A DNA stretch of 64,000 bases, taken from Sordaria brevicollis (Eukaryota > Ascomycota > Sordariomycetes > Sordariales > Sordariaceae). The position numbers were made by a program, and so were the translations under genes. The stretch is taken from NCBI GenBank assembly GCA_033439795.1, contig JAUTDP010000020.1:124001-188000 (forward strand), written 5' to 3'. Of this stretch, positions 2,893-35,282 are shown piece after piece. Numbering within the stretch: the stretch's first letter is position 1; every line of letters begins with the position of its first letter. Below the pieces are notes generated by a model. That model did no database searches. It was given only the letters and a program-made list of their open reading frames with translations, and was not told the DNA's origin.

Positions 2893-3563
2893 TCAATCCC
2901 TCCAAATCATAGTCCTCCACCTCCCACAAATCAACACCCTCTCCTTCCTCACCGTACCCCAACCCTTCTTGGTCCTCTTCACACTTGTAGAGATACCCTC
3001 GGCCTCGTCATCTCCATCCTCCCCTGACTCTTCGTCCGGCGTCAAATTACGTTTTGTCCACTTCCTCTTGACGTAAATGGCGGCGAACTCTCCACCGTCA
3101 ACACCAGTGCGGCCAGTGCTTCCATATCCGCCGGGATAGGCGAGCGAGAGCATCCGGCTATTGCTGCGCTTGTGGTTATTTGCTGTTGTGGTGCTCGTGG
3201 TGGTCGTGGTGTTGGAGAGCATACCTCTAGTGATGGAGGTGGTCGTTGGGGTGGGTGAGCTGGGGGAGGTGGGTGGCTTTACTTGTACGGCGGGAATGGG
3301 AGCTGAGGACTCGGTTTTGATTTCCACTTTGGGGGTGGGCGAGGTTGGGGGAGGTACTGGAGCCGGGGTATTAGCGGCGGCGGTAGACGCGGCGGCTTTG
3401 GAGCGGGTAATCCTGGTGGTCAAAAAGGGTTGTTGGCGCAAAAACGGAGAGGCGGGCTTGGAGCTGAAATAAGATGTTAGTGTTGGCTGATTGGATATAA
3501 CTTGACAAGAGGATCAAGGATTCAAGGGTTGTCATAGGGTTCGACCTACTCTGCACCGTCCAT
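2893..3563 (-). CDS. Hypothetical basic Ser/Thr/Pro-rich protein, looser member of the MQSL/GxWR family
   Basis: About 194 residues. Exon 1 (3550-3563) encodes only MDGA plus two bases. The intron (3464-3549, phase 2) has a GTAGGT donor and a textbook CACTAACATCTTATTTCAG 3' end. Exon 2 is 2893-3463. The protein has a long Ala/Thr/Pro/Ser low-complexity region, then the phrase SRMLSLAYPGGYG (compare YREMQSLxxLxxPG in sister genes), a V-K-R basic segment, an acidic patch and a C-terminus ICGRWRTMIWRD that resembles the terminal GxWRxVV box of the 10811 and 12485 genes. The spacing inside the first box differs from the sisters, so membership is less certain. No known domain. The intron phase, the very short first exon and the C-terminal box are what tie it to the family. 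Confidence 0.6.
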
Positions 3564-4094
3564 GTCAACTTTTTGGCTTTTCTCAGCTTGACTTTTAGCG
3601 AACGAGCTGTTCAGGACATGGACATTGTCTGGTTCCTGTCCTGAAGACATTGTTCGAGAGGGTTGCCGTCGCGTCTTTCGCCTGTCGCTGTCTGTCTGTC
3701 GGTTGTTGAAGGAGTTGCTAGCTAACTACAAAGCTGGTTGGGGGTACTTCGCCTTTGCGACTTGCGTACTTGGGCGAGATGTTTGGCTGCCCTGACGATT
3801 CGAAAGACGTTGCTTCATGAGAACCATTTCATGGAGAGAACTTTATGTTGGAAGAATGGAACGCCAAAGGTTTCTCTTCCGCGGTCCCTGGATCCTTCAC
3901 CCGCCTGGAAGTGAATGGACGGGAGTGTTTTCCACATGGTTGGAAACATGCCTGGCCGCCTTTACGGCCCAAAGTGAATGTCTCGATGGTGAATGGTTTT
4001 GTAGATCCTGGACCTGAAGCTGTCGAATGCCAGTCCTTGCTACGGCTCTTAGAAATGCTGCCCCCTCGTGAGGCTCTCGCCTGTCAGAGGTGAA
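3564..4094. other. Intergenic, 5' flank of the 2893-3563 gene
   Basis: No gene is supported. It ends at a GGTGAA hexamer (4089-4094) that is repeated after the inverted-repeat element. Confidence 0.4.
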
Positions 4095-4535
4095 TACGTT
4101 GGCCCAGGGCGGCCTTCGTAACACATCCACAAAGTTGAACAAAGTTGAAATTCTATCACCTGCAGGTCATAGAATCGCACCCGGGTAAGGTTCTCTCATA
4201 TTGTTAGCTATCACCTCGCACTCTTTCTCCAAACCCCTTTCCTATTACATCGTTATAAGAAAGAAGAGGGGACGATGAGAAGAGAGATGAAGAAAAGAGG
4301 AAGCGAAGGAAAACGCCCTTCTTCGTCTTTTCACTTCCTTCATCAACTCCTCTCTTCTCATCATCTCTCTTCTCACCATCTCTTCCCTTCTCCTATCATC
4401 ATGTTTTTTAATGGGTGAGGTTGTATTTTGGGGGTAGGGTAGGATTCACGTTGTGCGCCACTTGCCCTTAATTGAAGTTAGGGCCCAAACCTGATGTGTT
4501 ACGAAGGCCGCCCTGGGCCACCGTAGGCCACCGTA
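4095..4535. mobile_element. Putative MITE-like inverted-repeat element (441 bp)
   Basis: The left end (from 4095) and the reverse complement of the right end share about 33 bp that begin TACGKTGGCCCAGGGCGG and continue through CCTTCGTAACACATC, with one mismatch. The right terminus carries an extra 10-bp duplication of its end (TACGGTGGCC). The hexamer GGTGAA flanks both sides (4089-4094 and 4536-4541) and is a candidate target-site duplication. The interior contains a second, imperfect purine/pyrimidine fold-back (about 4258-4390) and no coding capacity. This is the structure of a non-autonomous DNA transposon. The short duplication makes the superfamily uncertain. Confidence 0.7.
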
Positions 4536-4867
4536 GGTGAAAGCTATTCGGTCTCTATCGAAGGAAGAGGTTCCGCTTCATAACAAGGACTATCTTCGTT
4601 TTGGACCTGTCATCGTCACTGTCACTGTCGGCGTGCGTCTACCTCTAGTCGGTGTGGTGTGGATTGGTCGACAGTAATACCTCATTTTCGGGCTGAGGTC
4701 TGAGGAAGTCAGAAGGAAGTCGGTGGAGGCTGATCTGTTGTAGATCCAAAATGGGCTGTAAGAGGAGCCTTGAAGAAGGTAGATGGTATTCGCATCATGA
4801 TCGTTTCTCTGTACGCTTCGATTTCGCAGCGGTACGACAATGACCACAAAGCGTCGGGTTTGACATC

Positions 4868-4963
4868 AACTGAAAATGACGGCAACTGAAAATGACGGCA
4901 ACTGAAAATGACGGCAACTGAAAATGACGGCAACTGAAAATGACGGCAACTGAAAATGACGGC
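4868..4963 (+). repeat. 16-bp minisatellite, six copies
   Basis: AACTGAAAATGACGGC is repeated six times head to tail with no mismatch, preceded by a degenerate fragment of the unit. The perfect identity points to recent expansion. It is not a multiple of three and lies outside any supported gene. Confidence 0.95.
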
Positions 4964-5072
4964 AAGCCAAAAAAGGAACCTGGGGCGCATGTGATTGGAT
5001 GCCCCTGGCGTCGGGAAAATGGGTGGAGACGAACTCGGGTACCTTACAGGTAGGTAACCAGCGAGCGGGTGT

Positions 5073-5127
5073 GTTAGTGATAGTGCACGCGCTAAAGTTT
5101 AGCGCGCCATAGCGTCTGTGCACTAAC
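5073..5127. repeat. Imperfect palindrome
   Basis: GTTAGTG at the left and CACTAAC at the right bound a sequence whose core (CGCGCTAAA / TTTAGCGCG) is also self-complementary. It would form a hairpin or cruciform. It may be a very small inverted-repeat element. No target duplication is visible. Confidence 0.6.
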
Positions 5128-6056
5128 ATCAAAACACTGCATGCCGTGGAGCGCAAGCCAGGGAACTCGGCGCAGCCTAAATCGCATGGGGAATAAAACG
5201 AAGGAGGACGGGAAAGAAGGAAGGAAGGAAAGGAGAGAAGTGCGATAAGTACCTACCTGCCCTAGGAATGGTGGAAAACGAGTGACGCGATGCGGAAACG
5301 TGAGGCCACAAATTCACAATGGACAAAGAGCCGCATGCAAAGGGAGAAAGGAGATGGAAACAAAGACGATATCGTCGCTCTGAAACGAGATACCTACGCC
5401 TTTTTCCCACGCCCAATGCCCATTAGCCGACTCTGACTACCACGACGGGCGGTCATTGATTGACGCCCGATCATACCAGAATCAACAACATCATCGCTTT
5501 GATTGACGAGCTTCGCTACGCTGTGTCGTGATTCCACGCATCAATGGTACTCAGCCAATCAACAACAAACGATAGAAGCCACGAGACTTTGTCTCTCTGC
5601 TCTTTTTTTCTTTCTCTCTGTCGTCATCCCCCGAACCTCCTCCGCATGGTTCGACGTTTACCGTGGCGCCCGGCCCATGACGACAAGACCGACGGGAGTT
5701 GTTGAACGGACGCGTTATATCGAACGACTCTGACTCTCTCCTTTCCTCCTCCGTTTCTCCTCCACACATTGCTGCCTTGGCTTACAAAGTGATGTGTTCG
5801 CTCACGTTGACGTATTTACCATCTTCAACATATAAGAGGTTCGGATTTTTAAAGATTTGAGAGAGACCTATCTGCACCAGAATGTACCCCGGCCTGCATT
5901 GAGTGATGATGAAAACTACAGTACCTGTGTAGACCTGGGGGGACATCTGGGTCTTTTACCCCTCCCGGGTCTGGCACGTACTTTCAGGTGCAAAGACTGC
6001 CCCCGTTGGTACTTGCTAATGCCTTGTCTATCTGCCTACGGAAGGTAGCGGTCTGT

Positions 6057-6212
6057 CTAACGTAAGTACTGCCCTCCATAGCTAAGTACGACAAGGTGGT
6101 GCGGCAATAGGCCGGCGGCGATGAGGCCGGCGGCGAGGAGGATGGCGGCTATGACGCCGATTACGAAGATGGGGGTTTCGTTGCCGCGGTTGTAAATGGG
6201 CTTGAGTGTCAA
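6057..6212 (-). other. Possible small membrane-spanning ORF or exon
   Basis: Reading the minus strand from a TTG at 6212, about 51 codons encode a polar start with an N-x-(S/T) sequon (NET), then a strongly hydrophobic Ile/Ala/Leu/Gly segment of about 25 residues (VIGVIAAILLAAGLIAAG), then a short tail. No in-frame ATG precedes it, so it would be the last exon of a spliced gene, a relic, or chance. It is listed because a clean transmembrane helix is unusual for random GC-rich sequence. Confidence 0.25.
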
Positions 6213-6656
6213 CTGTCAAGACCTAGGAAGTAACTGGTTGCACATGGGTTGCCAAGCAGGCACCGGCGGCGGCGCACCGCCCACAACATATCTACAAGTC
6301 CCCGCCGGTGTTGCTGGCCGGGCAGAATTGAGGTCCTTACATTCTGCAACCACAACAACATGGGCATAGGGGCTGTGAGAGCTGTGTGCGTTGTGCTGCC
6401 GCCATCTTACCTTTGTGACGATTTTGACGATTTTGACGATACCTCAGATACTAGTGACGATGGCCGGTTGGGAACTTGGGAATCGTCTATTTAAGGACAG
6501 GGACGCTCTGTCTTGTGTCTCGGACGAAAGAAGAACTTGCAACGACAGAGGCATGGCCTTGGATGACTGAAGCACTTTTCTGTTTTCATGACAGCCGTGC
6601 CATTGACTACATCTACGTACCGTAACCTACCAGGAAACGACGAGTCCCAACAAGCC
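6213..6656. other. 5' flank of the 6657-7618 gene
   Basis: It contains a six-codon upstream ORF (ATG at 6553) and an in-frame upstream ATG at 6588 that would add 23 residues to the downstream protein. Repeated TTTGACGA units occur near 6413-6440. No separate gene is seen. Confidence 0.4.
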
Positions 6657-7005
6657 ATGTCTTCCAACTCAGCATCCAGCCAGGCTCAGTGCCAGCCAAG
6701 AGGTGGGCAAGCCGACACGGTCAATGACAGGTATGTACAACCGCAAGGGCGGGCATTCCTGACCGTCCGTTCCGTTCTCCTGGCATTTCTCTCATTAACA
6801 GTTGATCACCAAATAGGCCAACCCCGCTCCAGCTCGACACGCAATGGTACCATGAAAGGTTCATGTCGATATGGGGACACCTTCGGGCTGTGCCTGTCAT
6901 GCAGAGTCAGACGGCCGCCCCACACTTCATGCCTCCTCCCCCTTCATGCCAACCCCTGCACTGGGCGGCCGCCCCACTCCCCTGGAAAGGGGAACCCTCC
7001 ACTCT

Positions 7006-7036
<31 letters not shown>

Positions 7037-7618
7037 TACGACGACTATATCGATCACAATCCAAGATCCCACGCAAGTTTCACGAGCTACCAGGAAGGGC
7101 TCGCCCAGCGCATCTCTCGCGCCCACCACAACTGGCAACGCGGGAAAGTCCTACTGGACATCGCCGAGACGCGTCTGGACGAGATCAGACATGCAATCGA
7201 CAAGAAGCAGGAAAGGGTGAGGCGGATGGAAGCCGTGATTACGCGCCGGCGTAGAACAAGATGCGGGATCATCCGTCGTGACGGCAGCAACCGGAACGTG
7301 GTAAATGGAGGAATCGGCTGTGACCGGGAGTCACCCCGCCTCCGAAAAATCGAACGGTACCGGAGGGAGCTGCCGCCGCTTCGGAAAAGCCTGCATGACC
7401 TCCAGCGCAAGGAGACCAAAGCGCTCATTACCAAGACCAAGGCTTTGGGGCGGCAGAACGGCTTACTAAAAAAGCATTTGGATTTAAAGTGGCAGTGGAC
7501 GTTAGCAATATGGACGCTGGAAAAAGAGTCGAGGCAGAAGGTGGCACATGCCGGACCTGCTGCCGACGGGCCTAACGGTGTCCATGGCAGCGTACAAGTA
7601 CAGGATTCACATCGTTAG
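6657..7618 (+). CDS. Hypothetical coiled-coil protein (region 1 set)
   Basis: Exon 1 is 6657-6730 and exon 2 is 6817-7618, about 291 residues. The 86-nt phase-2 intron has a GTATGT donor and an AAATAG acceptor. An in-frame ATG at 6588 is possible, but starting at 6657 gives the MSS start seen in the sister genes. The protein has a Pro/Ala-rich N-terminal part, a run of about ten Asp (GAC codons near 7009-7034), then about 170 residues rich in Arg, Lys, Glu and Leu with heptad-like spacing, predicted coiled coil. Segments LAQRISRAHHNWQRGK and RRELPPLRKSLHDLQRKE align loosely with LATKLPLVTERWDMWK and LRLLQRKIKALRRE of the 8568 gene. No catalytic motif or signal peptide. Function unknown. Confidence 0.65.
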
Positions 7619-7623
7619 CCAAC

Positions 7624-7650
7624 CCATCCATCCATCCATCCATCCATCCA
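7624..7650 (+). repeat. (CCAT)n microsatellite
   Basis: About 6.75 perfect CCAT units, immediately after the stop codon of the 6657-7618 gene, probably in its 3' UTR. Confidence 0.95.
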
Positions 7651-8567
7651 CTTCCACTTGCAATTCAGCCTCGCACAGCAGCACCCACCACGACTCCACG
7701 AGTTTGGGCAAGCCGACGCCCAACCAAGAAGCCGGAACGAGTGCGACTGGAAAAGGTTGACATTGTTGGGAGAAAAAAAAAAAAGCGCGGCAATAGACAA
7801 GGGGATTAAAGGCCCAAGGGTGCCAGAGTCCAGACGCCAAGGGAGACACTCTGACGTGAAGAGAGGGGGAAAAAAAAAAGAAAAGCAAGGAAGCTTGTAC
7901 ATGACCAAGATGCACAGTTGCACAGTTTCGATGGGTCAGCAAGATGGAAGGAATGGCGCAGATAATTCTGCTGCAAAGCGAGGGGAACGAAAGGGCCACC
8001 AGGCCCTGCCCCTGGGTTGTTGTGGCTTAAACGGGAAAAAGGGAAAGGAGTTTGGTGTACTTGTTTGTACTTGCCGTTTTTGGGAAAATCTTTTAGTGTT
8101 GAAGCCATTCACAAGTCTTGGCATAGCGGATAGGGTCCACACATGGATCACAGAGCCTGTATTTACGCTAAAGTTTTGTCTTTCCTTTTTCCTTTTTTGT
8201 CTCTGTCTTTCTTTCCAACAATCAAGCAAGGTGATCACCAAAACAGGAACCGCCCCATTTTCGTCCGATCCCGCATCTGAATTTCGTAGCTTCCTTCGGT
8301 CCTCGGTAGGGCCGGCATGATCGGACCACCCGCATTACAGATTACATGTACAGTTAACACTGCATCGAGGCTTCGCACCTGCGTTTAACTCACAACAGTC
8401 ACGACTATGACGTCGGTTGTCTTCCAGCCGAGGGAAACTGGAGGAATAAAGACGATGCTCCCTTCCCTGTTTTAGACTAGTAGCGAGAACGAACCCATTC
8501 TAGAACTCGAACAACTTGACGCAACTGTCTGCGGCAGAAACCAAGCACAAAGCAACCAACCATTGCC
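7651..8567. other. Intergenic with dispersed repeat
   Basis: 3' flank of one coiled-coil gene and 5' flank of the next. Short A runs occur near 7773 and 7871. Apart from repeat A copy 2, nothing is supported. Confidence 0.4.
8037..8145 (-). repeat. Dispersed repeat A, copy 2
   Basis: The minus strand here matches plus-strand 758-866. It sits about 420 bp downstream of the plus-strand gene ending at 7618, in antisense, the same relation copy 1 has to its neighbour. It supports common ancestry of the two gene-plus-flank segments or insertion of the same element. Confidence 0.65.
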
Positions 8568-9442
8568 ATGAACCTCATATCATCACGTCCGATACCTCTA
8601 CTGCGAGACCTTCTTCAACTTGGAGAACAAATGGTCGTTTCTTACTCCAGGAATGTTGAGGAAGTCCCGTAAGTTCAGCCGGATCACCCTACAGAGTATA
8701 TCGTAACACCTGCTTTCCTGGACTTCCACTTGACTAACAAACAATCCCCAGCCCGAGACCGCCCTCCCCAGATAACCTGTTAACCCCTTCCCACCTCTTC
8801 CTTGAGGTCTTTCTCGAGGAGTTCGAGCCTGCTCACCCCCCTACCAAGCCGAAGCCCACTGAACTATCCCGCTGTGATCTCGACGACCTCCAATCAGACC
8901 TCGCCACCAAGCTCCCCCTCGTCACCGAACGCTGGGACATGTGGAAAGCCCGGTACGACTCCGCCGCCAAGCAAATGAAGCGGAAAAAAACCATATACAA
9001 GGACAAGCTGGCGAGGATCGAGCGCGTCCAGAGGGAGATGGCGGACCTGAGGCGGGCGATAGAATGGGAGAAATGGGTAAGGTCATCTGGGGAACGGGTT
9101 CGCATTGTCCATGCCCGCAACGAGGAAAAGGAGGAGGACGAAGAGGATAGTGAGGAAAGGAAGCAAATTCAAATTCAGGAGTTGCTGGATGAGCTGCGCT
9201 TGTTGCAGCGGAAGATAAAGGCTTTGAGGCGGGAGCTGGGGTGGCTTCAAGTCAAGAAGTGGTGTCTACGGGGGAACTGTAATGATTTGTGTAGTGTGTT
9301 AAGGATTATGGAGGAGTGGTTGGGGTTGTTGAGGAGGGGGAGGTGGACGTGTTCGAGGAGCGAGACGTGCTTGTTGAGGGATCAGTTGGATGAGGCGTTG
9401 TGTGTTATGGAGGTTACGGGTCCGGGTGTTGTGGGTGGGTAA
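8568..9442 (+). CDS. Hypothetical coiled-coil protein (region 1 set)
   Basis: Exon 1 is 8568-8668 and exon 2 is 8752-9442, 263 residues. The intron (8669-8751, phase 2) has a GTAAGT donor, a CTAAC branch site and a CCCCAG acceptor. Exon 1 encodes a hydrophobic/polar leader without a clear signal peptide. Residues from about 85 onward form a long Lys/Arg/Glu-rich helix with an acidic break (EEKEEDEEDSEE) in the middle and a Cys-containing C-terminal part. The pattern of helical blocks resembles the 6657 gene, and the two are adjacent in the same orientation, suggesting tandem duplication followed by strong divergence. No enzymatic motif. Function unknown. Confidence 0.65.
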
Positions 9443-10810
9443 GGTAGGTGGAGATGCTGGGTGGTGGTATTGGCGGGGGAGGGGGAGATAAATGGATGAT
9501 GGGCGGTTGAATATATGGATCGTCAGCTCGTTGCGAAGGAGATTAATGCAGAGAAGAAGGATTCAAGTCATACAAGGTCCGATCAATTGTCCGAGGCCAA
9601 CAATACCTATCTCGCCTGTTCCCAAACAGGGCACAGCATCATGACCTAAGTACCCTTCTACCGTGGAAGGCCAAGAAATTGGGGAACATCGTTGTTGGAA
9701 GACAAAGGTCAACGTCAGGACGGGTGTTAAGGGCCACCAAATTCTAGAGGCGACTGTGTGGATATTCCCGCCGTCCCAGACAGCGAGGTGTGGTGTTCGG
9801 GCCGCAGAAGAACAACATGAGGGGATGCATTACATCAAGCCTGCCCAAAGGGACTGGAGCTGTCAACTCCACGGAAACTGCAAGGGAAGGAAAGAGCGAC
9901 CTGACAGCAGAAGTGAGAGATGGCGGGAGAATAGAGGTGTGATGCAGTGGGGAAGGAGCTAGGTGACAACAACCGCACTTGCCATCTGGAAATAACTCTC
10001 CAGGGGGTCAGGTCACCCATTAGGGCATCATGCCCCATTAGGTACCGGAGAAACAAATTTCTTCGTTTTTTACGGAATCTCTCAAGCGAAATGAAGCCAA
10101 AATTCCGTGACTTCTTCTCGTTACCATGTCCAAACAAGTTTCCCGTCTACGACTTTTTGCATCTCGAGACAACTTTCGAACATTCATTCACTTCTCACAC
10201 TCTTCTCTAACTGTATGATACTTTGCTGACAACCCTTGCTTCAGTTCCGCGTTACCAGAGCCACGTCGACGGCTCATCATCTCTCCAGCTTCTTATCTTC
10301 TTGATACAGCATCACGATGTGTGTTGATGGAACCTACGAACACCATGGCGGCGAGATGCATAAACCCGAAAGGATCCTGAGAGTTTGAACGACAATCTCT
10401 TCACTGAAAACCATTTGGAGTTGTAGCGTCCAGCGCATCGCCACTATATATCATGGGCGAGTGAATCCTACGGTCCAACGCCAAAGACCTCGACACCTAG
10501 GTTACATTCGACAATGGACAAGCACGTTGAACACAGAGTGGCTGGATTCAGAGGAAGAGACAACTGAGCCTGAATGACACTATTGTTCTCATTGTTCTCC
10601 ACGATCGCAGTCATGAATCCCACAAAGCAGACAAAGGACTGCCTCTTTTCTCTTTGTCTGAAACCCCCAACAATGACATTCTACCAGCCCTTTGTTTCGA
10701 ATTCGAGTAAAACCCCAGTCCCGTCCCGTCTGTCCGAGTCGACGACCTTTAGCCCCAAGTTTTCTGGATCTTCCAGACATCACAAGCGACAATACATTAC
10801 CGGCAAAACA
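9443..10810. other. Intergenic
   Basis: A 23-codon ORF (ATG at 10318) and several unsupported frames occur. No gene is supported by splice signals or protein features. The last 200 bp are the probable promoter and leader of the 10811 gene. Confidence 0.4.
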
Positions 10811-11472
10811 ATGTCTTCTCCCAAGTCTCCCGAGGGCATCGAGAAGTACGTCAATCCCAATACCTAACGTTGTATATATTCCATGACCACTAACGGGTTT
10901 ATCCTTACAGTAACCCTTCTCCGTCCAATTCAAGGGCAGCTGCGCCTAAAGCGAAATCGCCTGCCAAATCCAACACACCGCGTACCAATTCACCCGCCGC
11001 CAAAGCCCCTGTGTTGATATCGCCTCCCAAACGCATCCCCGCCGTCCGCAGACGTGGCCTCTTCATGTCCGCTTCCTCATTCCATGAATGCGATAGCATA
11101 CCGGCTACAAACCCCGAGCCAGAGCCAGAGCCGGAGCCGGAGCCAGAACCAGCCCCATCCCCCCGAGCTGCCGTCAACAATAGAGGTAGGCGTGCTGCTC
11201 ATCAAAGGCGCCCGCGAAGGCGCCCGCGAGGCGCGCTCTACCGCGAGATGCAGTCCCTCCGCCAGCTCGGTGGACCGGGAAGCATGATCGACTGCGTTTT
11301 TGTTCGGAGAGACGGGCTACCGCTGGCTGCCGCTGTTGGCGGAAATGCGGGTGTCCATAATAATAATAATGGTGGGGGAGGTCGGAGAAGGATTGGGACT
11401 AGAGCTCGTGGGTTGGGGGTTGAAAGAGAGTTTATTGATGGGGAGTGGAGGAATGTGGTTGTGGAGGAGTGA
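10811..11472 (+). CDS. Hypothetical basic protein, reference member of the MQSL/GxWR family
   Basis: Exon 1 is 10811-10845 and exon 2 is 10911-11472, 198 residues. The 65-nt phase-2 intron has a GTACGT donor, two CTAAC sites and a TTACAG acceptor. The protein starts MSSPKSP, has an Ala/Lys/Pro-rich region, a segment APVLISPPKRIPAVRRRG that is recognisable in the 12485 gene, a Pro-Glu dipeptide array (about seven PE), an Arg-rich basic stretch, the box LYREMQSLRQLGGPG followed by IDCVFVRRDG, a Gly/Asn spacer and the terminal box FIDGEWRNVVVEE. The basic stretches and low complexity suggest a nuclear or nucleic-acid-associated protein, but that is inference. Of the family members seen here it is the cleanest, with no frame damage. 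Confidence 0.7.
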
Positions 11473-12484
11473 GGGGGTTGGTGGGGATGGTGCTTGGAGG
11501 AAGAGGAGGACGGGGGGAAGGAGGAGAGCAACTTGGGGATTTGAGTAAGAGTTGGTGTAGATAACGTACGTGTAAGAGGTTCGGAATTTGATGTACCTTA
11601 CGATAGAGTTGTACAATAGAGTCTGGTCAAGGACTAGTGTAGTCTTTACAAGGGGCTGGAAAGAGGTATATATCCAAACGGGTAAATCCAACAGTGTAAC
11701 TCACACGTCTCAATACGTGACCAACACGGCGTCGCTGACGAGATGTCAAGAGGGGAGCTTAACACCACGATAGCTTCGAGTGAAGAAGGGAAAACACTCC
11801 AACATGAACGAGCCTTCGAAGGTAGACACGATCTACTGGAACTAGTGTTCGGAGAGGGACCATGCGGCCCCTCCCCTTCCCTTGGCTAAACAGGCTGCGT
11901 GCTCCTATCTAGAACGTCTGCGTAGGAGCACTAACAAAAGGAACAGAGTTTTTGGCTAGGCCTAACAATTTTTTTGCGGGTGAAAAGTGCAGTTTTCGTC
12001 CGTGCGATAACAGTTTGTTAGTACTTACGTGGCTCAGTATGGAGACCGCCCGCAAAAAGGCTAACAACCTTACCCGTAACTTTTAGCGTGCTAGGAGCTA
12101 TTAGTAAAGTAGAGATGAGGGAGAATATCCTTGCGGAAGATGGGGGGTTTGCGTGGAGGAGAACTGAGGAGTGTCTCGGTGAATTTGTGTTATGACCATG
12201 GCGGAAGAAGTGAAGGGCTTGGACAACTATTCCGGCTTGTGTACAGCTAGTGGTTGTCACTGACTCAAAGCTCGTCATGGTGTAAACCTGAATGGGAGCC
12301 TTCACTCCGTTTCTCCCAAGTTCGTAAGGTTTGGGGTAGGCATAAAACCGCCGTTCCTCCACCTCGTCAACGGTTCTGACAACCTCAACTCGCCCGGCCA
12401 ACACTCTGAAGTCTGGAAAAAAAGGCGTCGCTGATACCTCCCCTTAGCATCTCGAGCTTCCCCACGGAGAGAGACCACAGGACA
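11473..12484. other. Intergenic with small hairpins
   Basis: Around 11895-11925 the sequence GCTCCTA...TAGGAGC can form a hairpin. TTTTTGCGGG near 11970 has its complement near 12050. These may be remnants of a small inverted-repeat element, but no clear ends or target duplication were found. No gene is supported. Confidence 0.35.
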
Positions 12485-13697
12485 ATGTCTTCACCCCTGA
12501 AGGCTTCCCCTTTTACTAGCCGTACCAATCTGGATGCCCCTGACCACGAAGAGACACCCAAGAACGGGGCCACCACAGTCGACGTCGTCCAGTAAGTTGA
12601 TCCCTATCGTCCTGTTACCTGCTAGGCCTCACTAACGCACATCTCCAGGTCTTCACCCGATGCCACCGTCTCTGATTCCCCAGTGTCCCCTCACGAACCA
12701 TCGCCCAGTCCATACCTCAATGCGGCTGCCCCCGTTCTAATCTCGACCTACGCCCCAAGACTGCCGATGCGTCAAAGAAGCCGCTTCATGAACCCTTCCT
12801 CTTGCGACGACGACGGCATCGAACCCACCCAAGTCACAATCCCATGTCTCATCACACCCACGACTGCGGCTTTAACCGTTCCTCACTCTACCGCAACTCC
12901 GACCATCTCCAGAGGTACACGCAAACCGAAACGTTCCGACCGCCCCCGCGGCCCCGTCTGCCTCCGAGCCCACTCGCGAGGCCAAAGCAAAGACTGCGCG
13001 CCCGAACGCTGGCACCACCCCCGCCACTAACGACACGTCTCTGAAGAAAAAGCGCTCGAAGAGCGCCCTAGGGGATCTCTGTACCGCGAGATGCAGTCTC
13101 TTTGTCAGCTGGACAGCCCCGGGAACTTTGTCGATTGTGTTTTTGTCAAGAGAAGAAGGGCTATTAAAGAGCTTGACTTACCGCACCCCCCCTAATGTCT
13201 ACGTGCACCCGATTTTGACTTCACGCACCCGAAAAAAAGATCTACCGTCACAAGTGGTAAATTTCGATACCAAAACGTTCCAAACTTTCACCCACATACA
13301 ACGCCACAGCTCAAAACACAACACAACGAACGTTCTAAAGCTATTTCTACCTTAGAGATAATGATAATTTACCTCCTTTAATATAAATCTACCTTTGGAC
13401 CCCTTTTCGCTTTTTCTTAAAGCTTTGGAAGGCTTTTAGAGGTTTAGGTAAATATAGCGTTACGTTTGAAAGACGGAAATTTGTATATAAAAACGGCTAT
13501 AGTTTCTTACGGGTGCGCGAAGTCAAAAAAGGGTGCAACAAGACATTAGGGGGGGTGCGGTGAGTTAAGCTCCTATTAAAGGGGATAATTCGCGCCGCAG
13601 CCGAACTCGCTGTACAAAGATCTGGACGATATCGAGCGGAGTTCCGGTGATGACTTTCCTGGGGGGGAAGTGGAGGGTTGTGGTTGAGGAGGAGTAG
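12485..13697 (+). pseudogene. Broken MQSL/GxWR family gene, interrupted by an inverted-repeat element
   Basis: Exon 1 (12485-12591, MSSPLKASPF...) joins exon 2 at 12649 through a phase-2 intron with GTAAGT, CTAAC and CTCCAG. Exon 2 carries APVLIST and RSRFM segments alignable with the 10811 gene. The reading frame then meets a stop at 13028-13030. The expected basic tract (KKKRSKS) lies in another frame, and the box LYREMQSLCQLDSPG with DCVFVKRR resumes at 13079. Twenty-eight codons later a 404-bp element is inserted (13169-13572). Its bases add ELDLPHPP and a stop. After the element, 13581-13697 continues the same frame and ends GGKWRVVVEEE, the family terminal box. The gene therefore carries at least one frame lesion plus the insertion. 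If transcribed, it would give only a truncated product. Confidence 0.75.
13169..13572. mobile_element. MITE-like element with 8-bp target duplication (404 bp)
   Basis: The ends are 31-bp terminal inverted repeats (starting GAGCTTRACTYACCGCACCC and running to TAATGTC, two differences). The similarity resumes inward for about 27 more bases around the TGCACCC, TTTTGACTTC and GCGCACCC blocks. Direct repeats CTATTAAA flank it exactly (13161-13168 and 13573-13580). The duplication length and its T at position 2 and A at position 7 fit hAT-type target preference, but the termini are not a typical hAT end, so the superfamily is tentative. The interior is AT-rich and non-coding. It has inserted into the 3' part of a region 1 family gene. 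Confidence 0.9.
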
Positions 13698-14429
13698 ACA
13701 TCTGGGTCACATTGGTGTGGTGTATCGAGAGGGAGAGTACCTAAGGGGGGATGTGGGAGGTATGGGAGAGTGGATTTTATGGACGTGGATGTTGGGGACA
13801 TGTACAAGTGTGTGATAGCGGTGGGATGCGATCGCGGATTGTCCTGTAGTGGCCCCTAAAGGAAATTTGACGGATCCTGATTATTCTACCTAGATTTTGC
13901 TGCCAAATTGTCAAAGTCTCTTTTCTCACCTCCTTCTGCCATTGGAATTGGGCTGGTTCTACTGGTGAAACATGAAGAACTGTCAAATCTCAACCTCGAG
14001 TAACTCCATATCATATACGACCCAACTTCACCAACATTGTTTAGTCAATCTTGAGGTGTTCTTCGCCTACTCGATGGATGGAGAACCTTGCAAGGTACAC
14101 GCTTCTTGCGAGCCCGGACTCAGGTAGGTAGAGGTACCATGCTTCAGCTTGCTCAGGACGGCCAGCATCGCCACAAGGTTTACACAATGCGAAAGTGGAA
14201 CTGAGGCCAAGAATTCCATTCACACACCCAGCAAAGGGCCAATTCACTGCCCATGCCCTGTCGAGGTGGACAAATTCCTGCATTCATATCTTCCTGAGAG
14301 CTGGCCCTTACCTCTGTCCTTGCTTGTTGCTCCCACCTTTTCTCCTAGGAGACCATCTCACACCAAAACACCGGAATCTTTGCCCTATTTCTGTCTTTTC
14401 TTTCACAAAACCGCCTTAACTCGACTGCA
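13698..14429. other. Intergenic
   Basis: 3' flank of the broken family gene and 5' flank of the 14430 gene. No supported feature. Confidence 0.4.
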
Positions 14430-14878
14430 ATGTCTATCACCAAGACGTCTCTTCACGCCCAACAGGGGCTTACCGCCAAAAGCGGTCACTCCCACCGCAA
14501 GCGAGCCTCTCCGCTGGCCGGCAGTGAAGAACGTCGTCGGCACAAGGTCTTTGTCCGTGTATGTTACCTGCCTACTTGCTCCTGTTCCAGAGCCATAACA
14601 AGCTAACAACCTAACCCACATAGAAGCAACACAGATACAAAGCGTTCTCCTACAAGCTTGTCCAGGGCCAGAAGAAGCTTCAGCAGAAGCAGCAGGAAGA
14701 AGCGCAGAAGAACCTCCAGTTGGACGAGGAGCGCCGGATGGAGTTGTTTGTGTCCATGGCCGATTTCGAAGAGTTTTCGGAGAAGATGATGCGTTCAATT
14801 CTGGCTCTAGTTCAGGAGGCCATGGTGCCGCTGAGCAGCCTGAGCTTGCTTGAGAGGGAGGAGGAGTTGGATCGCTAG
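14430..14878 (+). CDS. Hypothetical small coiled-coil protein (region 1 set)
   Basis: Exon 1 is 14430-14558 and exon 2 is 14624-14878, 127 residues. The 65-nt intron has a GTATGT donor, CTAAC sites and a CATAG acceptor, but it is in phase 0, unlike its neighbours. The N-terminus is basic (SHRKRAS, EERRRHK). Exon 2 encodes a Gln/Lys/Glu-rich helix (QGQKKLQQKQQEEAQK) and then a more hydrophobic amphipathic helix ending in LEREEELDR. No known domain. Its position between family genes and its exon layout suggest it belongs to the same expanding block, but sequence similarity to the other coiled-coil genes is weak. Confidence 0.6.
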
Positions 14879-15761
14879 GAGTAGGGGTGCCGAAGAGGTT
14901 TGGTCACCTCCTGTTTGATGCCGATTGGATTTCACGATGACTGTTAGAGGAGTCATAGTACGCTGAACAATCACAGGTGGCTTATTTCATGCGCCGATAT
15001 AAGAGTTGGAGATCCTACATCTAGTCAAACGAATGTCTGTCTACTTGTTCCCCAAGAAGGGAAATTGGACCTATTATTTGCCCAGGGATGGGTTGCTACT
15101 TCCATGGATGTGGGTGAGTGTCACATCTCCGGAAGGAGTCATTGACATTTGCGGTAGTGGTTCCGCTTGATGAATTGCAATGGTTTAGGAAGGAGTCACC
15201 TCTGCTAACGGGAATGTAACGCATTCGTTGAGTGGCACATGTTCTTCGCTCCCAATTTGAACATTTGAGAAACCGACTCTTCCCTTTTCCATCCTTCATC
15301 CTATAACCTGCTCGCCATATATATCCAACTACACACTCAACACCCATCTCTTGATCCCCATATCCTCATGATCCTTCTTTCGGTGCTTTCTGTCAATGAA
15401 AATTCTCTGACCAGCCAACATGGGTGGTTCCCGGCCGTCATGACACTTCACCGACCATCACGTGGATGGAGAGATGAAGTGACCCGGCCGCCGCCCACCC
15501 ATTCACCCATCCCCTCAACTGTTGCGCGGAGCCACTTCACTTTCTCCCCCAAGAAGTAGGTGAATGCCCCCGTGGTCGCACGCACGGTCCATGGCTCCCT
15601 GGCGGCGCAGTACACAACGGTTCTCCCACCCGTCCTGCACCTCTTGTTTTCCTCTTCCGACAACCATCTCGAAAAGCCATCCGAGCAAAACCAAGTTGGA
15701 ACACAATTCCATCCCACGACAACACCACATCATCACAATCACCCTAGAAATACCATCCAAC
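14879..15761. other. Intergenic
   Basis: No gene is supported. The last 100 bp are CA-rich leader-like sequence upstream of the 15762 start. Confidence 0.4.
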
Positions 15762-17228
15762 ATGTCTTCCCAGCACACTCCTACCTACTCCCAACAGAGT
15801 ATCGTCCAGAACGGACAAGCTGTTGACAATGGCGCCGTGATGTCGAGGTACGTGTAACCCTGCTCTCCCGTCCCTAACGTATTTGCATCGTGGATAAATA
15901 GCCAACATACGAACACCGGATCCTATAGTCACAGCAGCACTACCTCTGGCCCGCGCACATCGGGATCGGTCAGCCCACCGTCAACGCCCATCAGATACTC
16001 GACCAACCCGTGCACAAACCGTGCCTTGGTTTCCTCATCCCCTCCGCCCGCTCCTCCTCGCCAGGCTTCTTACAGCCCGCGCATACCTTCTCCAATCAGC
16101 TCCGGTGCTTCGGACATCACGTCCACCGCACCGACCAACGAGCAGTCCGACAGCGAAGCGGGCGAGTTCTTCGAGAGCGATGAGGAAGAGATCGCTGCAG
16201 ACGACGCGAACGATGCCGTTGACGGCCCAGCGGGTGAAATTCTCGACAACCAACAGAACGAGGTCGTTGAGGACCCCAACCCAATGGGCGCGGCCCCCAA
16301 CAACCAAGATAATGAGGTTGTTCACCACCAAGTCGACGATGTTTTCGATGAGGAGGACAGCGAGGACGAAGAACCCGGTGAGGACTGGATCCGGCTGGTT
16401 ATGCCCTGGGACCAGCCAGAGATGAACTACTGGTACCGGCCAGGGTGGACTCCAAGGCCCGTCCTCGTGCCGCCCACTCCGCCCGGACTGCTACCGGGCG
16501 GGGCAGAAGCAACAGCGTTCTACGCCGACCGGGAAGAACGACGAATCCATGCAATCGAACGAGACCACGACAGATATGGGGCGTTCATCGCGAGGAGGAT
16601 GCGCCGACGTAGACGACGGAAGGAGATGCTTCAACAGACTGAGATCAACGAGCAGCAGGCTCGGGAGCGGTGGGGAGCTTACCCTCCCACTCCCGGGTCT
16701 GCTCCTCCGTCCACGCCTCTGTCTTCACCACCCACAAGCATCGCATCGTCTCAGACGCCGGATCCGATGCCCCCGGTCAATCGCCGGCAGAAGGGTATTC
16801 TCCCTCCCCCTCCCGAGGCCGATCCCTCGTCTTCTCCGCGGTCGTCGTCGTCACTATCGGCCCTCTCCAGCACGCCGTCCTGGATGTCTCCGAGTCCACC
16901 ACAACAGCCCAAGCGCCGCCCTCCGTACAGTCCGGTATACTCGTCCCGGACCATTCCATACACCCCGTCGCCGAGTCCGTCGCCACCTCCCAAGCGCCGA
17001 AAGAACAAAAAGTCGACGCTGGTCCTCGAAATGCGATCCCTTGCAGAGCTTGGAGGACCTGGGAATACCATCTCGCAGAGGAATCCCGATGGCAACAGCC
17101 AGCAATCCGATACGGCACTTGGAAATTTGTTGATGGGAGACCGCAACGTACCTGGATTATGGGCTGGACGACTTCGCCCACGGCCTGTCCGCAAAGACGA
17201 GGACCGAGATGAGGATCGGGAATTGTAG
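15762..17228 (+). CDS. Hypothetical Ser/Pro-rich acidic protein, MQSL/GxWR family member with altered C-terminus
   Basis: Exon 1 is 15762-15847 and exon 2 is 15902-17228, about 470 residues. The 54-nt phase-2 intron has a GTACGT donor, a CTAAC branch site and an AATAG acceptor. A second in-frame acceptor at 15928 would remove nine residues. After an MSS start come a Ser/Pro-rich part, an acidic region (about residues 95-160), an Arg-rich tract (RRMRRRRRRKE), a long Pro/Ser tail, a basic segment RRKNKKS and the family box LEMRSLAELGGPGN. Downstream of the box the annotated frame diverges from the family, while a different frame reads KFVDGRPQRTWI at about 17125-17160, resembling the family terminal box. 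A frameshift just after the box is therefore likely. It is the longest family member here. Confidence 0.65.
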
Positions 17229-17838
17229 AATGATGGACAGGGTCAACAAGAGGCTCGACTACAATGCACTCGGCCAACTGGTGACAATCCCCGAGTGAGG
17301 AAATTGAAGAACATCTTGGATGGTGTCATAGGAGTTCAAGGGCAGCATGTGACTTCGGCATAAGTCTGGAAGTTGTGTGGGAACATGGAGATTGCCGCGC
17401 CGGTACAACTGTGGTGAGGTCTGGTGTAGAAGTAAACGTGTTGCAAGACGTACAAACAAACAAGTTTTATTGTCCACATTACATATGCCATGTGTTTAAT
17501 GCTCGATCATGCTCATCCCAGTGCCTGTTCACTCGATGCCATGCTTTTCCAACCCAAATAATACGGCAGCTGCATCTGCTTCCCGCAGGATGTATGTGAC
17601 TGTACCATTATTTCTTCTTGGCCAGGTGGTGAGAATTCTAATAATTCCATTTTTGGCTTCAATTTTGATCGGTACAAAAGTTGGTATATCTTCGCCCATC
17701 TTCCTGGTTTCTCTTCATTCTCTTCTTCTTCCGAATCAATCAAGACTTCAAAGAACACGCCCAGACATTTCCAGCACACCACAACTTTTCTCGTGCAATC
17801 AAAACCTCGTTGACATCTTTATTTTTCTCTTGGACACA
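17229..17838. other. Intergenic
   Basis: No supported gene. It ends in a pyrimidine- and A-rich leader before the ATG at 17839. Confidence 0.4.
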
Positions 17839-18531
17839 ATGTCTTCCATCATGAACAGCAACACTCCACAGTTGGGTCAGTCCCAGGAGGCACCCACCGG
17901 CCATGAACGGCACCTCAGTTACTTGGATGAAGATGGCAAACCTGATGTTATGTCGAAGTAAGTAAAAAATTGGGAAACCCTTTGATAGACGGTACTCAGC
18001 AAAGAGTTGAGTCTATGAAGCGAACACTGCCTTCCACCTGGGTCGAGCAGTCTCGGTTTCTCCCTTGAGTCCCATCCCATGGTGTGGTTCGGTGTTCAAT
18101 CTTGGGCGACGATTATGAAGAGAGAAGTTGGATAGACCAGAGGGCAGAGGAGCGGGCCCTTGTCCCTTGAACTCGAAACAGCCCCAAAATCGCTCCGCCT
18201 CTTTGCCTCTCGTTTCTTTCCTGTGCTCTGTCGGGGCAGCTGTGACGCCAGTCTGGCCCTACTCTTCCCAGAACCAGCACTGCACTAGCTACCTAGCTCG
18301 AACTCACACTCATACATTCGCGTCCTTCTTCAACACAACATCAACTCCCCTCTCATCTTCTCGCTATCCCTGTAGCCCCTGATTTCCCCTACCCACCCGT
18401 CCACCATCCACCAAGCCCTCCCCATGCTAACATTCGTTCACGGTTCACCAGATTAATCACCTACCTAAACCGCCACACCCAAGCCGAACTCGCCCCGACC
18501 CGAGCCTTCATCACCCCAGCCTTCATCACCC

Positions 18532-18564
<33 letters not shown>

Positions 18565-18942
18565 ACCCCGCAGCCGCAGGCCCCGCCGCAGCCCATAACC
18601 CCCCCGGTTCCGGTTCCGGTTCCGGTATCGCCGCCCAGCCCGCCCGCCGCGCCCGGGCATGTTCCTCGTGTTCCTCGTGTTCCTCCTCGGGGAAAAAAGG
18701 GTAAGGGTAAGGGTAAGGCCGGTAAGACTAAGCTGGTGAGGGAACTGCAGTCTCTTGCTCAACTTAATAACTCGGGGAATTTTGTTAAGGGGGTTAGGGC
18801 GCTGGATTTGGATATAAATAGGGGGAGGTGTCGGGCTGGTAGTGGTTGTGGTGGCGGGAGTGGTGGTGGGAGTGGTGGGAGTGGTGGTGGTGGGAGTTTG
18901 AGCTCTGGGTCTGGCTCTGGTACGGGGTGTAAGGGGGTGTAA
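17839..18942 (+). CDS. MQSL/GxWR family member, uncertain structure, possibly degenerate
   Basis: Exon 1 (17839-17957, MSSIMNSNTPQ... to VMSK) ends at a phase-2 GTAAGT donor, exactly as in the 15762 gene (both exons end with codons for V-M-S). A good branch and acceptor (CTAAC...TTCACCAG) ends at 18451, which implies a 494-nt intron, unusually long here, or an unseen exon. From there the frame runs through Ala/Pro-rich repeats to a stop near 18703, but shifting one base inside GGGGAAAAAAGGG (about 18690-18702) gives KKGKGKGKAGKTKL and the family box VRELQSLAQLNNSGNF, then a Gly/Ser-rich tail. Further downstream VYLVRGHVWRL (about 19067-19100) vaguely recalls the terminal box. It is either a decaying copy or a consensus error at the A6/G3 run. 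Confidence 0.45.
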
Positions 18943-27741: not shown

Positions 27742-28850
27742 GTCTTTAAATAGTGTAGGGTAGAGGGAGGGAGGTAATGGGAGGGGGCGAGGAGGGAGGG
27801 TATGGAAGGGGAGATGGTGGGGGTGAGGGTGTGGGAGAGGGTGGTGAGGGGAAGTGGTGGGGAGTGGTGGGAAGTGGTGGATGTAATACGGACTTTGGAT
27901 CGATGGAGAACATGTCGACGGGTGCTTTTCATGCGGGTAATACTGGTAATGACTTGTTATCCCCGAGTGTCTTCCTCAGGTTGACGGTGATGATGTGACA
28001 ACCCTAACCCTTCTTCATCAAACATGTGGTTGGCGACAAGAGAGGTATGTAACGCTGTCCCCAGGGCTCGAAATGCAGAACGAATCAGTTGTAGACACCA
28101 TGAAAACAAGCTTTGAGAATGATCCCCTCCCCGCGTAGTCGTTGACCTTCCGAGGCTGGCTGTTGCTTGGATTGAAGTACTCTAGTGACCGTGGCCCAGG
28201 CAGCTTTGACGACTACCTATGCCAAGACATGGGAATTGCTTCATGGCTCGAACAAGAACATGGAATCCTAATAGCAGCCCCCAAGGTCAACCAAAGGCGA
28301 AATAAAAAAAAAAGAACAGAGATTACCATGCAATGGAATACAAAAAAGAACATACAACACCAGGGATTCGCTGGTCGTCACCGACCCAACTACTAGTCTG
28401 GCCCTCACTGGCTTATCTATGGGAGAGCGGACGGGATCCCGAGTTTTCCAGTGGGTATGGTCGTATGTACTGGAGTAAGGAGTTGGATGTGGTTATGAAG
28501 CGATGTTAAAGGGGATTGGGGGGTGCGTTCGGTGGTGGTTTTTGGTATAGCTGTTGTTGGGAGGGCATGGTATTGGTATAGACGGGATGGACTTGCGGAG
28601 TTGCGGAGTTGCGTAGGGTGTACTTCAACATCACGATATTACTAACCTGTACAAGAAACTGCATCCGAGAAAATATAGTTGATCTCCTCCATTATTGTAG
28701 GCACTATCTTCAACCGAGCCTTCGCACCACAACCCACGCCCTTCCCATCATCCCCAATCGTAAGCTTAGACCTGAACTGTAAACGGCGCCGTAAGCTCCC
28801 AACCCCCTTCCACCTCCCCCTACCTCACACTTGCACTGCAAAAGGCCCCA
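27742..28850. other. Intergenic between convergent genes
   Basis: 3' flanks of laccase and the glucosidase. Positions 28218-28243 match the core of dispersed repeat A (TATGCCAAGACATG and following). No gene is supported. Confidence 0.45.
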
Positions 28851-32969: not shown

Positions 32970-35282
32970 CTAGACAATGACGACTGTCTCCTCTCTTCCT
33001 CCTCGTTCCAAGCAACTGGGATAGCGCTTCCAAAAGTCGTCCCTCGCATCCTCCACTCCCTTGTAACCTTCACGGCCTTCGTGAATAATCCCAATCCGCC
33101 TGTAGGTCTTTGTCGTCTTGTCACCCTCAGTCGTCATCGGCTCATTGTCAACACGTGCCAAAACGAGCGAATACTCAGTATCAACCAACCACCTCGTCTC
33201 ATCAGGAGGAGGCATCCTCCTCCCCACCCTTGCCATCCTCAGCACCCTGATATCACTCCCCATGTACTCCCTCCCGTCCGTCCTCTCGACGGACAAGAGC
33301 TCAGCCATGGAGTCGGGATTAAATCCCTCCTTGATCAAGGTGCCCAGATCATCGGGCTTGGAGCCTTCTTTGAGGCCCTTTGCATCAGACTGAGTCATCA
33401 AGACAAAGCTGCTACCTCGCTCGGAAGCATACGAGGTAAAAGTCTTGACCCCTGTCGCCGGGTCCATGGGAGTGGTGATGGTCAAAGTGACGGTAGCCTT
33501 GGTCTCTCCCTTTCCGGACTTTGAGTCAGGGCCAGGCCGTTCAATGTCCCTATAGAGAGTGGCATAAAAAAGTTCACCCTTGACAACCAGCCGCCCATCG
33601 GATATGCGACCGGTTCTGTCCGTGGTAGCTAGCGTAGTCTCGGCAGCGATGATATCGCAAAGCGGCTTGACCTCACACGTAGACCCGTTGCGTTCCGTCC
33701 CCAACCGTGGGAAGATGACGGGCACGTCACGGGCGGCCCAAGACCAGCTGGGGGCTCGCCACTCGTTTGCTTGCAAGATGCGGTCGATCGCGTGTAGACT
33801 CCACACGTATGCTGCTGTCCACAGCAGGTCTGTCAGGAGGGAGTCACTCCACAGGCCGGCTAGGTAGCGCACTTCAGGTCCTCGGGTTTTGCTCATCTGT
33901 TGGGCGAGCCCTGATAGAGCAGGGAATTTGTCTCCGGCAAACGACAACTTGAGACGGGAATAGGACTCGATGATGGTGTGCCATTGGCGAGTCAACAACA
34001 ATGACTTTTCGGGGGAGGGGTGCAACAGCGCTTGGTAGTGCGCCTGTTTGAAGAAGGTACTCCTGAATGGTGGTGGCTGAGGACACTGACAGGTTCCTCC
34101 CGTCTTGCACTCCCAGAGCAGTTCTTTCTTTGCGAAATGAATCACTCTTGGACTCAGGATCATCTCTTGATGAACCCATCCGCGAGAGAGCGAGGGGGTT
34201 CGATAGTTGGTGGGAAAGGGGTGCTCGCCTAGACCCAGCTCGAAGTATGCCAGTATCTCAAAGGGCTTGCTTTCGGTGCCCGATGTGATGCCTGTGAGTC
34301 GGACAAAGTTGGAGGACTCGCGAACAGGGAGACCACCGGTGCCATTGGAAGCAGCAGTAGCTGCGATGGTGAGATGGCCGTTCTCGTAGATGCTGCACAT
34401 CTTGGCTGACTCTTCTGCCCAGTCGTGGGCAGAGTCTTGAATGATGCATAGTGAATCGATCCAGATGTAGGATATTCCGAGATGGGCGGTAAACTTGATG
34501 GCGTCTTGGAAGGTCTTGGGGATGCTGTTCCACTCGATTCGCTCCAGGTGTTGGGCAATATTATGGGTAGTAGTGATGAGTGGTTGCGCTCCTCCCCAGC
34601 AGTGACTGAGGCAGTTGTATTGGCCCAGAGTTGGTGAGTCGTGCTGGACGAGACGAATGTCGGTGTAGTTCTCGCCGATGCGGATGACTCGACGCGGGAG
34701 AAGGGTTTCCTCTGAACTGTGACATTCCGGATGGTTGGCCAGGCAGTCCTTGAGCCAGTAGGAGGCTACATCGTAAGAGTGAGAGTCCAGGATATGGACG
34801 GCTGAAGGGGTGTGTTTCCTGTCGTCGAAGGTATTCCAAGGACACGGGAGAGTGTCGAGTGAAGTGAAGGTCATGATGCGGTGCTCGTCTTCATCTCCGG
34901 TGCTGAGTTTGGAGCCTTCCCGCACACGAAAGGTGCTGATTTTGGGAAAGGCTTCTGCCGAACTCCAGATTTCCAGTTCCTCGTCCATTCCCAGCCGTCT
35001 TTTCACCTTTCTTTCGGCCAGAGTGGTTAGGATGCGGCATTGCCAGCAGGTATCGGGCGATGCGTTTGCGACCTTCAATACGACCGAATGCGAGAGAGAT
35101 GACTTTTGTTCGTCGACGGCGAAGGCCCTCTCGCATTCTGCGCATCTCGTGTCTGGAAGAGGGCCGCGGGATACCAGGGTGTTTCTTGACGAAGACGCCT
35201 CTTCCCACCATCTTGACAGTGTCCAGGGGGCCGTCTGAGGTTGAGGGTCTGGGAGGGGAGCGTCATGGGCGGCCTGGGACAT
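32970..35282 (-). CDS. HET-domain protein (heterokaryon incompatibility type)
   Basis: A single-exon gene of 770 residues. Residues about 222-330 contain the hallmark HET blocks: YNCLSHCWGG, the IPKTFQDAI helix, YIWIDSLCIIQD, and the tail block MCSIYENGHLTIAATAA. Further downstream SRGWVHQEMILSPRVIHF and WSWAARDVP are also typical of fungal HET proteins. Upstream, Cys pairs (CAEC, CWQC) form a CxxC-like N-terminal motif seen in many of them. HET proteins mediate allorecognition and regulated cell death when unlike mycelia fuse. Many family members have no known partner. No NACHT, WD or ankyrin region is present, so this is the HET-plus-unknown-C-terminus type. The frame is intact. Confidence 0.93.
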   Translation of the reverse strand: MSQAAHDAPLPDPQPQTAPWTLSRWWEEASSSRNTLVSRGPLPDTRCAECERAFAVDEQKSSLSHSVVLKVANASPDTCWQCRILTTLAERKVKRRLGMDEELEIWSSAEAFPKISTFRVREGSKLSTGDEDEHRIMTFTSLDTLPCPWNTFDDRKHTPSAVHILDSHSYDVASYWLKDCLANHPECHSSEETLLPRRVIRIGENYTDIRLVQHDSPTLGQYNCLSHCWGGAQPLITTTHNIAQHLERIEWNSIPKTFQDAIKFTAHLGISYIWIDSLCIIQDSAHDWAEESAKMCSIYENGHLTIAATAASNGTGGLPVRESSNFVRLTGITSGTESKPFEILAYFELGLGEHPFPTNYRTPSLSRGWVHQEMILSPRVIHFAKKELLWECKTGGTCQCPQPPPFRSTFFKQAHYQALLHPSPEKSLLLTRQWHTIIESYSRLKLSFAGDKFPALSGLAQQMSKTRGPEVRYLAGLWSDSLLTDLLWTAAYVWSLHAIDRILQANEWRAPSWSWAARDVPVIFPRLGTERNGSTCEVKPLCDIIAAETTLATTDRTGRISDGRLVVKGELFYATLYRDIERPGPDSKSGKGETKATVTLTITTPMDPATGVKTFTSYASERGSSFVLMTQSDAKGLKEGSKPDDLGTLIKEGFNPDSMAELLSVERTDGREYMGSDIRVLRMARVGRRMPPPDETRWLVDTEYSLVLARVDNEPMTTEGDKTTKTYRRIGIIHEGREGYKGVEDARDDFWKRYPSCLERGGREETVVIV

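Follow-up and report, generated by a model that had tools for sequence, protein, structure and literature searches.

Orphan paralog clusters of Neurospora crassa have been described as lineage-restricted, tandem, mostly head-to-tail, enriched at chromosome ends and diverged despite repeat-induced point mutation (RIP) (Kasuga et al. 2009, PMC2684829), and a later study (Wang et al. 2023, PMC10684091) has reported that lineage-specific genes of Neurospora cluster with HET-domain genes. Here we analyse a 64,000-base stretch of Sordaria brevicollis DNA (hereafter the window; C13:124001-188000, where C13 coordinates refer to the whole contig), in which the first-pass annotation had proposed a paralogous gene family of at least four to five copies within 16 kb, marked by a short shared box. 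Four copies do lie in the window, starting at 10811, 12485, 15762 and 17839 (copies 1 to 4), and the fifth (copy 5) was found outside it, 17-18 kb ahead of the window at C13:105993-107147 on the reverse strand. The module that carries the box is also present in Neurospora proteins, and the family extends beyond both the window and the species. This is a real family of two genera, tandem at this locus, with one constrained C-terminal module and a turnover of copies.

A tandem family with one constrained C-terminal module

In order, the module consists of a basic tract, a short helix of the pattern L-x3-[ML]-x2-L-x2-L, a turn of the GGPGN type and a tail that varies. In the window the codons for the E of the box lie at 11245, 13088, 17028 and 18742, all on the forward strand. 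Leave-one-out profiles of the core were searched against the 5517 open reading frames (ORFs) of at least 30 aa on the contig, with a threshold of E <= 1e-5, and recovered the held-out copy in all five cases (6e-12 for 10811, 3e-14 for 12485, 2e-6 for 15762, 9e-7 for 17839 and 1e-9 for the copy at C13:106118). The box proposed for the four window genes is hence borne out in each of them at E <= 2e-6, and it stands apart from background ORFs, the best non-member among the 5517 reaching only E 0.42. A profile enlarged with Neurospora sequences, and including the five copies, placed all copies at E <= 3e-18 and the next ORF at 1.9.

The only residues invariant in all five Sordaria cores are L, E, S, L, L and G, and the GGPG of the turn is replaced by DSPG in copy 2 and by NNSG in copy 4. 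The basic tract expected before the box is a feature of the family as a whole, but it is weak in these same two copies. In an alignment of five proteins (Sordaria, Neurospora and the protein P0004 described below), the core with its preceding basic residues and one following G accounts for 16 of the 22 invariant columns, RKR..L.RE..SL.QLGGPGN being the main conserved block. Across the 18 codons of helix and turn, nonsynonymous divergence (pN 0.18-0.42) was lower than synonymous divergence (pS 0.59-0.84) in 10 of 10 pairs, a ratio that is imprecise because silent sites are near saturation. Together with the invariant columns, this agrees with the earlier description of a clustered, fast-diverging family with a constrained short core.

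Besides the group formed around copy 5, just two pairs were found to be similar outside the core, copy 1 with copy 2 and copy 3 with P0004. The APVLIS...FM block that had been noted in the genes at 10811 and 12485 was confirmed as common to them, the alignment score of their N-terminal halves being reached by 6 of 500 shuffles. The alignment of copy 3 with P0004, which runs through a second G-x-W-x-x-RLRPR block, scored 113, as compared with a mean of 31.7 (s.d. 6.1) for shuffled sequences, and none of 1000 shuffles reached it. The terminal GxWR box proposed for the family holds for the 10811/12485 pair (at 11440 and 13665), with a looser GxW near the ends of the 15762 protein and of P0004, but four of seven family tails lack it: leaving out copy 4 and copy 2 (which keeps a remnant), a GxW tail is present in copy 1, copy 3 and P0004 and not in P0001, P0002, P0003 or P0005, as compared with 12 of 720 ORF tails on the contig.

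Relatives and predicted structure

A protein search with copy 5 (7996 candidates scored) returned two proteins, its own database record P0001 and P0002 from Neurospora sp. IMI 360204 (E 6e-23). A second search used the core alone, all other positions being set to X, and scored 4050 candidates of about 125-400 aa sharing 5-residue words, up to E <= 10; it matched four proteins, P0002 (1e-20), P0003 (8e-19), P0004 (2e-11) and P0005 (1e-3), and was blind to P0001 and copy 3 because both exceed its size limit. P0003 and P0005 are from N. tetraspora, on contigs of equal size; P0004 is listed under the source 'lgn', its organism being unstated. No N. crassa or S. macrospora protein was among the hits of these size- and word-limited searches, and the relatives found under these restrictions, to which the number of candidates scored adds another, come from Sordaria and Neurospora, with P0004 besides. 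The full-length copy 1 protein had no match among 7991 candidates scored, perhaps because of its low-complexity words, and a plasmid collection searched with copy 1 gave no match either.

Copy 5, P0002, P0003 and P0004 have a helical domain in common (...QWALFQ.YRQ.HL...R..LC.AYYRW...), followed by a linker that is short in P0002 and Pro-rich in the other three, and then by the basic tract and L.RE.RSL.QLGGPGN. P0005 presents a different N-terminus, rich in Ser, Pro and Thr, with the same core, which in the two genera thus follows at least two types of N-terminus. A search of the genome with the helical domain returned copy 5 only, and none of the four window copies was seen to have a domain of this kind. 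The middle of copy 3 was rejected as a candidate for it, 279 of 500 shuffles reaching the score, and its similarity to the neighbouring gene at 6657 was not clear (40/500).

When the 53-Mb genome was queried with five core-holding proteins, a convincing core was found on C13 alone. This search was prefiltered and several queries missed copies 3 and 4, so that more distant copies may exist. Copy 5 as a query gave weak matches on C2, C24 and C1 (E 0.14-0.56). The candidates L004 (C24, E 4e-4) and L007 (C13:191786, E 0.39) were rejected as chance matches, their translations being without the core, and L006 (C22, E 0.13), which the core queries did not return, was also taken as chance.

The first-pass annotation had recognised no domain in these genes, and this was upheld: no Pfam-A family scored above its curated cut-off in copies 1 and 3, in copy 2 as far as its stop or in P0001-P0005, the HET domain (PF06985) included, and a match of PF05887 to the PE repeats of copy 1 fell far under the cut-off. 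NCBIfam gave nothing above cut-off for five proteins. Profile matches to Protein Data Bank entries (20 at E <= 10, among them antibody chains and USP1, best E 0.014) were taken as chance, and none of 19 Foldseek matches to the helical-domain model reached E <= 0.001. AlphaFold, run on the C-terminal 110 residues of copy 1 with 7 sequences, predicted the core helix at 30-42 and a terminal hairpin at 92-109, with a mean per-residue confidence (pLDDT) of 56. For P0004 (4 sequences) it predicted helices at 29-66, 72-87 and 109-122, and residues 31-130 have pLDDT block means of 72-84, apart from 91-110 at 45-56; beyond residue 130 confidence is low to about residue 281, and the core helix at 283-298 has a pLDDT of about 50.

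Individual copies, neighbouring genes and decay

All features of the four window copies lie on the forward strand. Copy 1 is intact, with a first exon at 10811-10845 (MSSPKSPEGIE) that ends in a phase-2 GTACGT donor and a second at 10911-11472 that is open to its stop, for a full model of 198 aa. The APVLIS...RGLFM block shared with copy 2 spans 11005-11067 by alignment and reading, the core module (basic tract and LYREMQSLRQLGGPGSMIDCVFVRRDG), located by profile and predicted as a helix with low confidence, spans 11218-11316, and a terminal box GEWRNVVVEE can be read at 11440-11469. Copy 3 is likewise intact (470 aa), with exons at 15762-15847 (phase-2 donor GTACGT) and 15902-17228, the latter open to its stop. 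It encodes mostly Pro-, Ser- and acidic-rich low complexity and has its core module, TLVLEMRSLAELGGPGN, at 17001-17072, placed by profile and alignment, with GLWAGRLRPR downstream matched in P0004.

Copy 2 is broken. Its first exon (12485-12591, phase-2 donor GTAAGT) is followed by a second that runs from 12649 to an in-frame TAA at 13028-13030 and holds the APVLIS...RFM block at 12728-12790 (alignment and reading); the core module SLYREMQSLCQLDSPGNFVDCVFVKR, identified by profile at 13061-13153, lies downstream of this stop. A 403-bp miniature inverted-repeat transposable element (MITE), at 13170-13572 on the forward strand, is inserted behind the box, so that the remnant terminal box GKWRVVVEEE, read at 13665-13695, lies beyond it. 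The element has 70-bp terminal inverted repeats that are 86% complementary and is flanked by a 9-bp target duplication, CTATTAAAG, at 13161 and 13573. Genome-wide it has five other near-full-length copies, 80-98% identical, plus partial ones (22 candidate places including its own, from 59 matches), and it was probably active recently in S. brevicollis, given that one copy is 98% identical.

Copy 4 is probably broken. Its first exon lies at 17839-17957 (phase-2 donor GTAAGT), and the likeliest acceptor, at 18452 with a branch site 25 bases upstream, would give an intron of 494 bases. The core module KLVRELQSLAQLNNSGNFVKGV, identified by profile at 18715-18801, is in a frame that is not joined to exon 1 free of stops by any of six acceptors tried, and either the frame is broken or the gene model is only provisional. 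Copy 5 (window -18007 to -16853) is intact, with its core at C13:106118; its 359-aa model is 100% identical to part of the annotated P0001 (B0T20DRAFT_140063, hypothetical, 432 aa), whose start is annotated 73 residues upstream. Model and annotation agree on the exon junction, and P0002 has counterparts on both sides of it in the alignment. The proposed mixture of intact and broken members is hence supported, with copies 1, 3 and 5 open, copy 2 carrying a stop and a MITE, and copy 4 probably broken.

These copies also bear on an alternative in which most of the family would be decaying paralogs with little present function, the degenerate duplicates of one functional ancestor of the copy 5 type. 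The broken copy 2 with its probably young MITE, the probably broken copy 4 and the lack of any record for the copy 1 model among the candidates scored are in line with such decay. Against this, the long reading frames of copies 1 and 3 are still open and their cores intact despite near-saturated silent sites, and in N. tetraspora, too, a protein that lacks the helical domain (P0005) has been retained. We consider general decay an unlikely explanation.

The gene at 2893-3720 on the reverse strand (MSS start, phase-2 intron, RMLSLAYPGG, end GRWRTMIWRD) had been put forward as a looser member. The core profile, followed up to E 30, did not pick it up, and a genome search with the last 104 residues of its protein gave no other match at E <= 1. 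Alignment scores of its C-terminal half were reached by 1 of 1000 shuffles against P0005, 6 of 1000 against copy 1, 150 of 1000 against copy 5 and 161 of 1000 against copy 3, and GxWR, as at its end, is seen in 8 of the contig's 720 ORF tails. It may be distant kin of the box family, a borderline case that was left uncounted. The genes at 6657-7618 and 8568-9442 appear coiled-coil-like, each starting with a short exon and a phase-2 intron, and have no Pfam family above cut-off. Their similarity to each other is weak (8/500 shuffles), and they were not clear as kin of the helical domain (133/500 and 58/500).

The four window copies all have the proposed MSS start, and in all of copies 1-5 the first intron is in phase 2, as proposed, and its donor and branch signals are good (in the window GTACGT or GTAAGT donors and CTRAY branch sites). 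Phase-2 first introns are, however, no mark of the family, because the neighbours at 2893, 6657 and 8568, coreless by profile, have them as well. In total, 8 of 10 first introns (these three and copies 1-5) are phase 2 and those of 14430 and 19799 are not, in models picked by hand and with the acceptor of 19799 unsettled. These hand-picked models suggest that the 5' ends of the phase-2 genes are shared. Elsewhere in the window, a perfect tandem array of the 16-mer CAACTGAAAATGACGG (6.2 copies) occupies 4867-4965, and a 5S rRNA gene (28349-28468) and two tRNA genes (36369-36460 and 39564-39665) lie on the reverse strand.

Possible role of the module at a chromosome end

We tentatively interpret the box family as an orphan family, so far found only in the Sordariaceae, whose module would serve as a putative tag for nuclear docking on proteins that are variable and for the most part disordered, a reading that we find plausible if somewhat short of probable. 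Each protein would combine a variable, mostly disordered N-terminal part (a helical domain in one subtype) with the constrained C-terminal module. The basic tract, resembling a nuclear localization signal of the KRKR type, may bring the protein to the nucleus, where the hydrophobic face of an amphipathic helix, suggested by the leucine spacing, could dock onto one conserved partner. The helix would be capped by the GGPGN-type turn, with a short variable tail after it. Such docking would keep the module as the rest, presumably disordered, diverged freely. Copies would be born by duplication, amplifying the family in tandem in a chromosome-end region that holds HET genes, and lost through stops, frame breaks and transposon insertion.

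Several points weigh against this interpretation. The basic tracts of copy 2 (EERPRG in the box frame) and copy 4 (GKGKAGKTK) are weak, the turns of both depart from GGPG, and with copy 2 broken and copy 4 probably so, any constraint in them concerns the past only. The constraint test is itself crude, with dS saturated or nearly so over 18 codons, and the core helix is predicted at a pLDDT of only about 50-60. The searches that delimit the family had gaps of their own: the core protein search, limited to about 125-400 aa and 5-residue words, missed P0001, several queries of the prefiltered genome search did not find copies 3 and 4, and the tail of P0005 gave weak partial-core matches at C21:149852 (E 0.31) and C8:936117 (E 0.59).

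Alternatively, the core module might itself bind DNA or chromatin, as a basic arm plus a short helix, terminated by the turn, on disordered proteins with a role in coating or regulating chromatin. The basic tracts directly adjoin the helix, and RRPRRRPRG in copy 1 may resemble an AT-hook. However, no Pfam family, DNA-binding or other, was detected in the proteins scanned, the invariant L, E, S, L, L and G of the five Sordaria cores include no basic residue, and copies 2 and 4 have only a weak tract. Direct binding of this kind seems to us rather improbable.

The setting of the putative docking family could also be established. The right end of C13 (307,911 bases) carries TTAGGG telomere repeats, which places the window about 120-184 kb from the telomere. 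RIP-like sequence makes up 7 of 31 ten-kb blocks of the contig (GC 0.21-0.25, TA/AT > 1.1). C13 also holds genes of conserved families identified with Pfam (Nrap, Tcp11, a condensin subunit and Argonaute), and it therefore looks like the end of a chromosome arm and not an accessory fragment. The Argonaute/Piwi gene, at C13:55046-58081 on the forward strand, shares this chromosome end with the box cluster. Two of 37 ORFs scanned with Pfam on C13 (outside the window, 18 of the 31 longest listed ORFs, 3 of them end-clipped) encode HET domains, both on the reverse strand: one at window 32970-35366 (PF06985, E = 2e-28), 14 kb downstream of the cluster, and one at C13:251919-253934. The cluster lies close to a chromosome end and has HET genes in its surroundings, the arrangement that characterises lineage-specific chromosome-end genes of the Sordariaceae.

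That the copies are allorecognition or meiotic-conflict genes, encoding small partner, toxin or antidote proteins of the HET or spore-killer type, would explain their fast divergence and frequent loss and would fit the two HET genes, the fast turnover of box copies and the clustering of Neurospora lineage-specific genes with HET genes (PMC10684091), but it rests on proximity, no HET or other Pfam domain was found in the proteins scanned and the helical subtype, conserved in both genera, suggests vertical descent, all of which makes it doubtful.

The docking interpretation admits a bolder and equally doubtful extension, in which basic tract, amphipathic helix and GGPGN-type cap would form a new Sordariaceae mini-domain, a portable nuclear tag spread by duplication onto unrelated, newly arising N-termini at the chromosome end and helping new genes to be born and kept. 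Fungal chromosome-end orphan genes are numerous and functionally opaque, and a short module that is kept provides a handle, a single peptide for tests of location or partner. Should its N-termini prove to be truly unrelated, the module would show by what route new genes obtain a working address in the cell.

No description of the box module was found in searches of open-licence papers, and the box family looks to be so far without description, chromosome-end orphan clusters as a kind being already known. Like the N. crassa orphan clusters (PMC2684829), it consists of tandem, lineage-restricted paralogs near a chromosome end. That study gives counts and positions and is not known to name a shared C-terminal module, the word 'motif' being absent from its main text; furthermore, the species here is S. 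brevicollis, and no N. crassa protein was among the matches. With the genes of PMC10684091 the box family shares a domain-less chromosome-end cluster beside HET genes, close paralogs and AT-rich RIP sequence. That study is not known to present a family defined by a short C-terminal module, its main text containing neither 'motif' nor 'gene family', and, unlike its genes, box family members span Sordaria and Neurospora. A further likeness is to the hypothetical proteins P0002-P0004, which have the module in common with the box family and the helical domain and linker as in copy 5.

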